A stretch of 64,000 nt of DNA from Aquiluna sp. Lineage in GTDB: Bacteria > Actinomycetota > Actinomycetes > Actinomycetales > Microbacteriaceae. The translations under genes were made by a program, and so were the position numbers. The notes under the pieces were generated by a model. It saw nothing but the letters and a program-made list of their open reading frames with translations. It was not told where the DNA came from and did no database searches. Of this stretch, positions 54,989 through 57,081 are shown piece by piece; within the stretch, counting starts at the first letter, position 1, and every line of letters begins with the position of its first letter. The DNA lies in NCBI GenBank assembly GCA_021741585.1, contig JAIOXN010000001.1:673059-737058 (forward strand). Direction: 5' to 3'.

Positions 54989-55003
54989 AGGCTTGAGCCT
55001 ATG
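54986..55003. promoter_or_regulatory. symmetric divergent leaderless promoter of tadA and upp
   Basis: CATAGGC (54986-54992) and GCCTATG (54997-55003) are perfect 7-base arms around TTGA. The outer three bases are the two start codons. Each strand reads TAGGCT, an actinobacterial -10, followed by 7 bases and ATG. The two promoters thus interlock, and a polymerase or repressor bound here would affect both genes. No clear -35 is visible. Confidence 0.7.
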
Positions 55004-55648
55004 CGACTTACCGTAGCGAACCACCCTCTGATTACTCACAAACTTACGATCCTGCGCGATGAGCGAACGCCATCGCCGATTTTCCGATTGCTCGTTGAAG
55101 AGCTGGTTACCCTGCTGGCATATGAAGCAACCAGAGATGTCAGGGTGGAAAGCGTGAGCATCAAGACACCGGTGACCCAGACGGTTGGACTGCAACTCTC
55201 CCACCCAAGGCCGCTTATTGTGCCAATATTGCGCGCCGGTCTTGGAATGCTCGAGGGAATGACCAAGCTCCTGCCATCAGCAGAAGTTGGGTTTTTGGGC
55301 ATCAAAAGGGATGAAGAAACTTTAGAGCCCTTCACGTATGCGAACCGTCTACCAGATGATCTTGCTAATCGCCAGGTTTTCATCATCGACCCGATGTTGG
55401 CGACCGGTGGCACACTCAACGACTCAATTGACTACGCCTTTGAGAGAGGCGCCGAAAGCGTCACCTGTGTTTGTCTTCTTGGTGCTCCAGAGGGGGTAGA
55501 AAACGTCAAAAGCCACCTGAATTCCAAGTGGCCTGCTAAAGACGTGAATATAGTTCTAGGTGCCTTGGACGAGAAGCTAAATGAGCTCGGCTACATCGTC
55601 CCTGGCCTTGGTGATGCCGGCGATCGACTCTATGGAACTGCCCAATAA
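55001..55648 (+). CDS. upp: uracil phosphoribosyltransferase
   Basis: Upp salvages uracil by joining it to PRPP to make [23 protein letters not shown] is the family start, and the PRPP loop is [10 protein letters not shown] with the uracil-binding [13 protein letters not shown] near the C-terminus. The 215 residues match. The ATG at 55001 has TAGGCT 7 bases upstream and no ribosome site. It is divergent from tadA. Confidence 0.96.
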
Positions 55649-55657
55649 GAAACAAAC

Positions 55658-55686
55658 TTGACATTTTCAAAATCTTTTAGCAAACT
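55658..55686 (+). promoter_or_regulatory. strong promoter ahead of the Cys/Met-rich short frame
   Basis: TTGACA (55658-55663), exactly 17 bases of spacer and CAAACT (55681-55686) give a near-ideal promoter, 10 bases after the upp stop. The ATG of the short frame follows 8 bases later, so the transcript starts at or just before it. Confidence 0.75.
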
Positions 55687-55694
55687 TCACCGCA

Positions 55695-55769
55695 ATGAGT
55701 AATCGACTAGGCACTTCTGCGCAGGTTTCAACCTGCGCCATGTTGTCTTGCTCGATGTGCATGCTTTAG
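55695..55769 (+). CDS. 24-residue Cys/Met-rich leader peptide (candidate attenuator)
   Basis: The frame ATG 55695 to TAG 55769 gives 24 residues that begin MSNRLGTSAQ and end STCAMLSCSMCML. Three Cys and three Met fall in the last 11 residues. It lies directly behind a consensus-like promoter, with no ribosome site, so leaderless translation is likely. A 9-bp hairpin lies inside its codons (55719-55738) and a longer hairpin starts at the stop codon (55769-55810). This is the layout of a sulfur-amino-acid-sensing leader. Polycysteine leaderless leaders acting this way are known in mycobacteria. The controlled gene would be the winged-helix regulator at 55873. I cannot prove translation. Confidence 0.6.
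   Translation: MSNRLGTSAQVSTCAMLSCSMCML
55719..55738 (+). promoter_or_regulatory. hairpin 1 within the leader peptide frame
   Basis: GCGCAGGTT and AACCTGCGC are perfect 9-bp arms around TC. A 2-base loop is too tight for RNA, so about two inner pairs must open. It covers the codons just before the Cys/Met stretch and could act as a pause hairpin. It has no T-tract. Confidence 0.6.
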
Positions 55770-55810
55770 TGCCGCTACGCGAAACAGCTATTTCGTATTA
55801 GCCAAGGCAC
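55769..55810 (+). promoter_or_regulatory. hairpin 2 at the leader peptide stop codon
   Basis: Nested arms GTGCC/GGCAC (55769-55773 with 55806-55810), GCTA/TAGC (55774-55777 with 55799-55802) and CGAAA/TTTCG (55780-55784 with 55791-55795) form a long stem with small internal loops. It begins at the G of the leader stop TAG, so a ribosome stalled on the Cys/Met codons would change its folding. Confidence 0.55.
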
Positions 55811-55872
55811 CAGCACCCCAACAAACACACGTGATTCGTGTATTTCATTCGCACACACTCAAAGGACAAAAA

Positions 55873-56475
55873 ATGCCACTGGCCACCAAAACTCAAACCG
55901 CGACAGAGATTAAGGGATTCGCTCTTTACGTTGGAATATCCGAACTCGAAGCCCTTAATGCAGGGACATCGCTTGCTGAAATCGCAATCGCACTCAAGGC
56001 AACAATTGCAAAGCTCGTGCCCGAGAAATCTAACGAGACCTATGCCACTGCTGCAATTGCGCCAGAAAACGCAAAGGGTCGCAACTTAGATCTAACAAGG
56101 CTTGCCCTTCATGAGCCAAAGGCAACCCGCGCTAAGACCGAGCAATTTGAAACCGAAGCAAAACCAGCCAAGGGAATCGTCGTAGACCTGACAAGGAAGC
56201 GGGTATTTGTCGACGGCAGAAATGCCGCACTAACCTGCAAGGAGTTTGAATTGTTGGCCTTCCTGATTGAAAACCAGGGTGAAACGGTTTCGAGAGATCA
56301 AATTGCTAGCATCTCCGAACGCTGCGGAGAATCCACCCCAAATGCCAGGACTATTGATGTTCACGTGCGTCGCCTGAGAAGCAAAATCGCAGGTTACGAG
56401 GATGTTGTGCGCACTTCCCGAGGTATTGGCTACCGATTTGATAAGCACCCCGATGTGCTAATTGAACAGCTCTAA
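55873..56475 (+). CDS. OmpR/PhoB-type winged-helix DNA-binding protein (no receiver domain)
   Basis: The 200-residue protein has an N-terminal region (to about residue 90) with FALYVGISELEALNAG and RNLDLTRLALHEP, unlike a response-regulator receiver and lacking a phospho-Asp. The C-terminal 100 residues form an OmpR/PhoB winged helix: LTCKEFELLAFLIENQGETV, SRDQI, RTIDVHVRRLRSKI and RTSRGIGYRF. Similar one-domain regulators occur in Microbacteriaceae, with unknown signal. ATG 55873 has AAAGGA upstream. An upstream leader of about 180 bases contains the peptide frame and hairpins; a further small hairpin, ACACG/CGTGT, lies at 55827-55841. Confidence 0.82.
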   Translation: MPLATKTQTATEIKGFALYVGISELEALNAGTSLAEIAIALKATIAKLVPEKSNETYATAAIAPENAKGRNLDLTRLALHEPKATRAKTEQFETEAKPAKGIVVDLTRKRVFVDGRNAALTCKEFELLAFLIENQGETVSRDQIASISERCGESTPNARTIDVHVRRLRSKIAGYEDVVRTSRGIGYRFDKHPDVLIEQL

Positions 56476-56484
56476 ACTCTAGGA

Positions 56485-57081
56485 GTGCCAGCTACTTTCC
56501 AAAGTCTTGACGAGGGCTTATCCGCGGTTGCAAAAGCGTTTATTGCCATAACAGATCGCAAGCCCGCAGCGATTCTCGCGATTGATGGCCCCGCCGCCTC
56601 TGGCAAGAGCACGTTTGCTAAAACACTTCAGGAGATTTTGTTCACCGACCTAGAGCAACTGCCTCGAGTGATTCACATGGACGATCTGTACCCCGGGTGG
56701 GAAGGTCTCAGGGCTGGTTCTAGCTACCTGCAGAAACAAGTGCTTGAACCACTGCGAATCGGCAAGGCAGCAACTTGGCAAATATGGAACTGGAAAGAAT
56801 CGGCTCGCGGGTCAAAAACTGAACCGGGAAATGGCTGGCGCGAATTTGAAGGTCAAACACCACTGATTGTTGAGGGCTGTGGCGCTATTTCGGCAGCCAC
56901 GGCCATGCTCGTTGACCTGAGAGTATGGATAGAGGCGGACGCCAAGGTTCGGCACCAGAGATGGCAAGAAAGAGATGGCGGGCAGTTTGAATCACAATGG
57001 CAACTCTGGGAAGACCAAGAGCAAGAGTTTTATGCGTCCGAGAAATCGAAATCTTTCGCAGATTTCCTAATAACTATTTAG
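56485..57081 (+). CDS. P-loop NTPase of the uridine kinase-like family
   Basis: Walker A is GPAASGKST (residues 35-43), followed by VIHMDDLYPGWEGL, a DD substrate motif like that of uridine kinase, and LIVEGCGAIS. The family (COG0572-like) includes nucleoside and pantothenate kinases, and the true substrate is not shown. GTG 56485 has TAAACT exactly 6 bases upstream; the TAA of this hexamer is the stop codon of the previous gene. So the gene probably has its own leaderless promoter within the preceding stop. It overlaps dedA by 4 bases at the 3' end. Confidence 0.82.
   Translation: MPATFQSLDEGLSAVAKAFIAITDRKPAAILAIDGPAASGKSTFAKTLQEILFTDLEQLPRVIHMDDLYPGWEGLRAGSSYLQKQVLEPLRIGKAATWQIWNWKESARGSKTEPGNGWREFEGQTPLIVEGCGAISAATAMLVDLRVWIEADAKVRHQRWQERDGGQFESQWQLWEDQEQEFYASEKSKSFADFLITI

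Follow-up and report, generated by a model that had tools for sequence, protein, structure and literature searches.

What does the intergenic region between upp and the regulator gene that follows it do in Aquiluna (Microbacteriaceae), and to which signal might it respond? The window analysed here is a 64,000-nucleotide stretch of an Aquiluna genome, in which this leader region lies between upp (55001–55648) and the regulator ATG at 55873. The leader features and the regulator are on the forward strand. A promoter (55658–55686) was read from the sequence, with a −35 hexamer TTGACA (55658–55663), a 17-nt spacer and a −10 hexamer CAAACT (55681–55686). Eight nucleotides further on begins a leader frame (uORF) of 24 codons, MSNRLGTSAQVSTCAMLSCSMCML (55695–55769), which ends in the stop codon TAG (55767–55769). 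The regulator is preceded by the Shine-Dalgarno (SD) sequence AAAGGA (55861–55866), and an AAGGA-type site is retained in most relatives. A preliminary description of this DNA had given the same promoter, spacings, frame length and regulator start, and re-reading the sequence showed them to be correct. It had also called the promoter near-ideal. This holds for TTGACA, the 17-nt spacing and the conserved layout, but the −10 hexamer agrees with TATAAT at only three of six positions and a consensus promoter scan of the window leader gave nothing above the scan threshold. Among relatives, a TTGAC motif followed by a hexamer after 16–19 nt is kept at 125 of 139 distinct loci, and the uORF ATG lies 6–8 nt past the −10 hexamer at 115 of these 125. 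Since the distance is 8 nt in the window, the leader mRNA is probably leaderless, with a predicted transcription start at the uORF ATG or no more than about 2 nt from it.

The last 11 residues of the uORF, CAMLSCSMCML, hold three Cys and three Met, as had been noticed previously. With background frequencies taken from the long frames of the window (Cys 0.52%, Met 2.4%), the chance of at least six Cys plus Met in 11 residues is about 3e-7. The proposed sensor is formed by codons 19–23, TGC-TCG-ATG-TGC-ATG (55749–55763), whose C-[SR]-M core is kept across the family, and an additional Cys codon is located at 55734–55736. The three Cys codons of the window uORF are separate; most relatives have a CC pair. 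A C-[SP]-M core is present in the frame of all 20 Aquiluna sequences. In other Microbacteriaceae genera the uORF usually ends in AVMCCRMC(R/A), with MMMPxxAVMCCRMC(R/A) as a longer form, and in several genomes of a second family of the order it ends in MRCCRMHA. In the alignment of the 20 Aquiluna sequences, gaps within the frame are multiples of three and gaps after the stop codon are not. The most constant residue of the uORF is Cys; Met is frequent, but RNA pairing partly dictates it. The last Cys codon is a free mixture of TGC (47) and TGT (46) in 93 of 104 distinct tails. Of the 85 distinct tails with Arg ahead of the last Met-Cys (codon −4 relative to the stop), 81 use CGA, a bias that persists although synonymous change is permitted and that perhaps reflects a slow codon or an RNA contact. 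One leader (L045) carries a species-specific in-frame expansion, with MMPVL four times before MMPVRAVACCRMCA.

By a single fixed criterion, a Cys/Met-rich uORF precedes the regulator at 149 of 173 loci, versus 0.2 in Markov-shuffled upstream regions. The link between a conserved Cys/Met leader and the regulator is thus borne out family-wide, and a coincidence confined to one genome is ruled out by the presence of the uORF across Aquiluna, in other genera and at these 149 loci. The identical scan found no such uORF at the other 24 loci, and in another family comparison two Clavibacter loci are among those that lack it. The leader is linked specifically to one gene, the regulator. Of 100 family genomes, 46 carry one copy each of a 21-nt core, TGYTGYCGNATGTGYNNCTRA, which invariably lies on the strand of the regulator and 186–526 nt upstream of the regulator match; the reversed control pattern has no match in the 100 genomes. 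A near-identical core is present in just 19 of 395 genomes of the class, all from two families. Pattern searches of the family and class genomes did not show the leader core repeated at other sites, and the downstream gene is a winged-helix regulator in all relatives compared.

The leader RNA of the window folds more stably than shuffled sequences (z −3.2), and single-sequence folds of 20 Aquiluna leaders share a similar architecture of five stems, P1–P5. Because the register of the stems varies, RNAalifold found little structure on the plain alignment. The stems were examined instead with cognate-versus-swapped tests, in which 3′ arms were exchanged among 16 non-redundant Aquiluna species; their permutation statistics ignore phylogeny. 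The arms of P1–P4 diverge strongly among species yet stay complementary. P1 (55696–55861) pairs TGAGT (55696–55700) with ACTCA (55857–55861; z −2.8, p 0.004), and in most relatives the frame start pairs with ACTCAT directly 3′ of the SD. P2, GCGCAGGTTTCAACCTGCGC (55719–55738), is the hairpin reported earlier inside the frame and has either a 4-nt loop closed by 8 bp or a 2-nt loop closed by 9 bp (z −7.0). P4 (55769–55810) is the nested stem whose first base is the G of TAG. It consists of GTGCC...GGCAC and an inner stem (z −6.2), and its outer five pairs are intact in 20 of 20 sequences. P2, the outer P4 and P5 jointly have a covariation of 0.170, versus 0.069 when shuffled and 0.017–0.075 when slid, in a column-wise count that ignores phylogeny. 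Conservation of the Cys/Met codons and stems in relatives, whose absence would have counted against the preliminary description, was clearly found.

P3 (55757–55854) joins GTGC (55757–55760) of the Cys/Met codons to GCAC (55851–55854) of the pre-SD segment. An untargeted duplex test with long segments in the genus was null (−24.3 versus −24.2, p 0.42); restricted P3 segments, defined only after this result, gave a cognate-versus-swapped z of −4.2 in the 16 Aquiluna species. P3 has about 4 bp in the window, the weakest of the set, and 7–9 bp in several relatives. Among 25 species with short leaders the P3 score reaches z about −5 (0 of 20000 permutations), and the uORF of 119 species in long-leader genera pairs more strongly with the pre-SD segment of its own species than with those of others (0 of 5000 permutations); neither statistic models phylogeny. 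The stem at the stop codon had been put forward as the switching structure. P4 does co-vary, but the telling pairing also includes P3, which connects the Cys/Met codons with the pre-SD segment. Sequence comparison thus shows the frame and its conservation, the leaderless promoter layout, the co-evolution of P1–P4 and the specificity for one gene.

The Aquiluna alignment also contains a near-invariant 37-nt element, GGCACCAGCACCCC(R)ACAAACrCACGTGATTCGTGyA (55806–55842), with the hairpin P5 (ACACG-TGATT-CGTGT, 55827–55841). It is a single-copy sequence in the Aquiluna genome, and its invariance in Aquiluna far exceeds the need of pairing. P5 is nearly invariant, but that of the window shows a compensatory A-U for G-C. 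A shorter core, GRCACCAnnACCCC, is retained in Rhodoluna-like leaders. The element may be a binding site for a protein or an RNA.

Which step of gene expression does the leader control? No terminator with a T-tract is evident after the uORF, which agrees with the earlier remark on its absence. Terminator-like hairpins do not clearly exceed the chance level, with two weak sites, one of them inside the uORF, versus 0.8 expected, and an intrinsic terminator acting as a classical transcription attenuator was rejected on these grounds. The pairing of the Cys/Met codons with the pre-SD segment in P3 indicates translational control and would explain the lack of a T-tract, and the position of P1 and P3 on the flanks of the ribosome-binding site (RBS) fits the same step. 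Direct sequestration of the SD is unsupported, since the folds leave the SD single-stranded and exposing the SD-to-AUG stretch alone costs about 3 kcal/mol in every ribosome state. Any block would therefore come from the neighbouring structures rather than from pairing of the SD. For the 30S landing site (−22 to +13), a region picked after the SD-to-AUG result, a simple model puts the mean opening cost at 8.2 kcal/mol when the RNA is free; this falls to 5.7 when a ribosome occupies the Cys codon and to 7.5 when it occupies the stop codon.

The missing T-tract, the location of P1 and P3 beside the RBS and the landing-site costs together make translational attenuation, with the ON state at Cys shortage, the most likely reading. 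We assign a probability of about 0.68 to a leaderless Cys-codon translational attenuator that couples the supply of cysteine, possibly also of methionine, to translation of the regulator. That the signal is cysteine, that the ON state is starvation and that translation is the step under control are inferences. In the proposed mechanism, transcripts would begin at the uORF ATG or no more than about 2 nt away, and ribosomes would translate the uORF. When cysteine is ample, they would get to the stop codon and depart, after which P1 and P3 would fold on either side of the regulator RBS and shut it. When Cys-tRNA is scarce, a ribosome stalled on the Cys codons would mask the 5′ strand of P3, so that P3 (and P1) would open, a ribosome could land on the regulator RBS and the regulator would be made.

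The main rival is Rho-dependent attenuation through the same Cys uORF, in which a stalled ribosome would block Rho, and finished translation would expose the C-rich invariant CACCAGCACCCCAACAAACRCACG and let Rho stop transcription before the regulator. Such a model would account for a C-rich, G-poor 37-nt element just past the stop codon that is nearly invariant, which base pairing alone does not explain. Rho-dependent attenuation has moreover been proposed for actinobacterial cys leaders (PMC1262725) and demonstrated for the CruR uORF (PMC9426467). However, the sequence constraint on the element goes far beyond the requirement of a rut site, the element contains a stable hairpin, and the co-evolution of P3 with the pre-SD segment is unneeded for Rho. 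We consider this alternative unlikely.

A second alternative places the sensor in the nascent Cys/Met-rich peptide itself, which would bind copper or another metal, or respond to thiol oxidation, and so stall or release its own ribosome. Cys and Met at such short distances could act as ligands of soft metals, and a uORF that senses copper and carries a CXXC motif is known in CruR (PMC9426467). The peptides of the present leaders, however, are about 22–35 residues long with Cys at the extreme C-terminus, and the Cys residues would therefore still be in the exit tunnel when the ribosome is at the stop codon. The spacing of Cys and Met also varies (CSMCML, CCRMC, CSMAMCM, CACRRMCC), the window peptide has no CXXC or RAPP motif, and regulator neighbours, upp among them, have no metal function. 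A peptide sensor is therefore improbable. Very improbable is a general ribosome-distress sensor like the whiB7 leader, in which any stall in the uORF, caused by antibiotics or starvation, would turn the regulator on. The layout of a uORF and stems before a regulator gene is shared, and the CGA codon before Met (81 of 85 tails) is perhaps a slow codon, but a general sensor would have no use for Cys codons kept over two families, and the Cys run is the top conserved feature. That the Cys and Met codons are a chance or structural by-product, present only since RNA pairing requires UGC and AUG, is hardly credible: the Met-Cys codons of Aquiluna do form the 5′ strand of P3, where GU pairing permits exactly TGC and TGT, yet long-leader genera often use upstream parts of the uORF for better pre-SD pairing and still keep the Cys codons, and other families have Cys-rich frames of different sequence.

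What would a translational attenuator of this kind control? The regulator (55873–56475) is an orphan OmpR/PhoB/GlnR-type winged-helix protein of 200 aa, with a C-terminal Trans_reg_C domain of the OmpR/PhoB type (PF00486, 65.6 bits, residues 116–189). A Pfam search identified no N-terminal receiver domain. The N-terminus comprises about 100 conserved residues without a Pfam match and is modelled as mostly helical, so that the one-domain protein of the preliminary description does not stand. With a structure model of mean pLDDT 79 and pTM 0.49, Foldseek gave good matches for the C-terminal domain only, to winged helices such as those of GlnR and PhoB. An orthologue is present in 147 of 150 Microbacteriaceae genomes sampled, and more distant full-length homologues occur in further families of the order. 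The gene directly 3′ of the regulator (56485–57081) is P-loop kinase-like (NF005115, 149.6 bits, below the cut-off of 173) and may be co-transcribed with it.

GTAAC- or GTCAC-type direct repeats are found near the regulator promoter. In three upstream regions of the second family (L209, L212 and L213), a pair of TTGTTAC-type repeats, spaced by about 21 bp, extends across the leader promoter. Both kinds of repeat suggest autoregulation, the TTGTTAC pair with a GlnR-like binding mode. A regulon search with strict GTAAC-type repeats in the genus and the second family matched only the regulators' own promoters, a Microbacterium-type pattern had no match in 120 genomes, and these promoter-repeat searches found no link between the regulator and sulfur genes. 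The PAPS/APS reductase family (PF01507) has no match in the Aquiluna genome, which is 99.8% complete. Sulfate assimilation is apparently missing from this genome, and cysteine supply is therefore likely critical. As no other regulator targets were found, the sulfur link is drawn from the leader, together with the absent PAPS/APS reductase. More tentatively, the locus may represent a family-wide sulfur-starvation switch, in which a Cys (+Met) leader governs a master regulator of the GlnR-like type in almost all Microbacteriaceae and their relatives, and the 37-nt element serves as a further, new site of recognition by a protein or RNA. We regard this wider reading as plausible, though somewhat short of probable. 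With a conserved attenuator in front of a single orphan regulator, a candidate master regulator can be named whose input is directly testable, and in a genome without a detected sulfate-reduction gene the leader may be a main way of noticing sulfur shortage.

The leader has no match to Rfam 15 covariance models up to E 10, and leader peptide profiles gave none for six peptides (NCBIfam) and five peptides (Pfam), so that a known RNA or leader peptide family was rejected. The literature searched contained no earlier description of the leader or the regulator, and none of sulfur control in Microbacteriaceae (Microbacterium, Clavibacter, Curtobacterium, small freshwater Luna bacteria). The leader is real and family-wide, and as a probable attenuator it is new in target and anatomy and of a known general kind. 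It differs from the CruR copper uORF (DUF2946, with CXXC and RAPP; PMC9426467) in that the window peptide has no Pfam match and neither motif. The cysS leader uORFC-8-2 of Rhodobacterales also places tandem Cys codons in a leader stem, but it has an intrinsic terminator, precedes cysS and belongs to Alphaproteobacteria (PMC8632094). The whiB7/wblC attenuator is likewise a uORF governing a regulator gene in Actinobacteria; it differs in its antibiotic signal, its WhiB protein and its transcription attenuation with a terminator. In the LEU element of actinobacterial leuA, a regulatory codon run pairs with the SD region of the gene as well, whereas the codons are Leu, a pseudoknot is involved and the target is biosynthetic (PMC1262725). 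Predicted cys/cbs leaders of Mycobacterium, Propionibacterium and Bifidobacterium are similar in being actinobacterial, in having a short leader whose Cys codons lie close to its stop and in lacking a terminator, but they precede cys operons, have no reported conserved hairpins and come from other families (PMC1262725).

The likeness suggested by the preliminary description was to the polycysteine leaderless short ORFs of mycobacteria, which have Cys codons near the stop and cysteine biosynthetic genes downstream (Canestrari et al. 2020, as presented in PMC9031893 and PMC13236596). Judged by these accounts, the likeness extends to the probably leaderless Cys uORF, the Cys codons near the stop, the proposed translational control and the lack of a terminator, and the promoter spacing (6–8 nt at 115 of 125 loci) fits a leaderless start of the mycobacterial type. 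It does not extend to the target, since the mycobacterial ORFs, as presented there, act on cysteine biosynthetic genes, whereas no such operon follows the Aquiluna leader, which precedes an orphan regulator, mixes Cys with Met and has four co-evolving stems. Cysteine-codon attenuation would thereby be extended from biosynthetic operons to a transcription factor, through which a local tRNA-charging signal could turn into a regulon-wide response.
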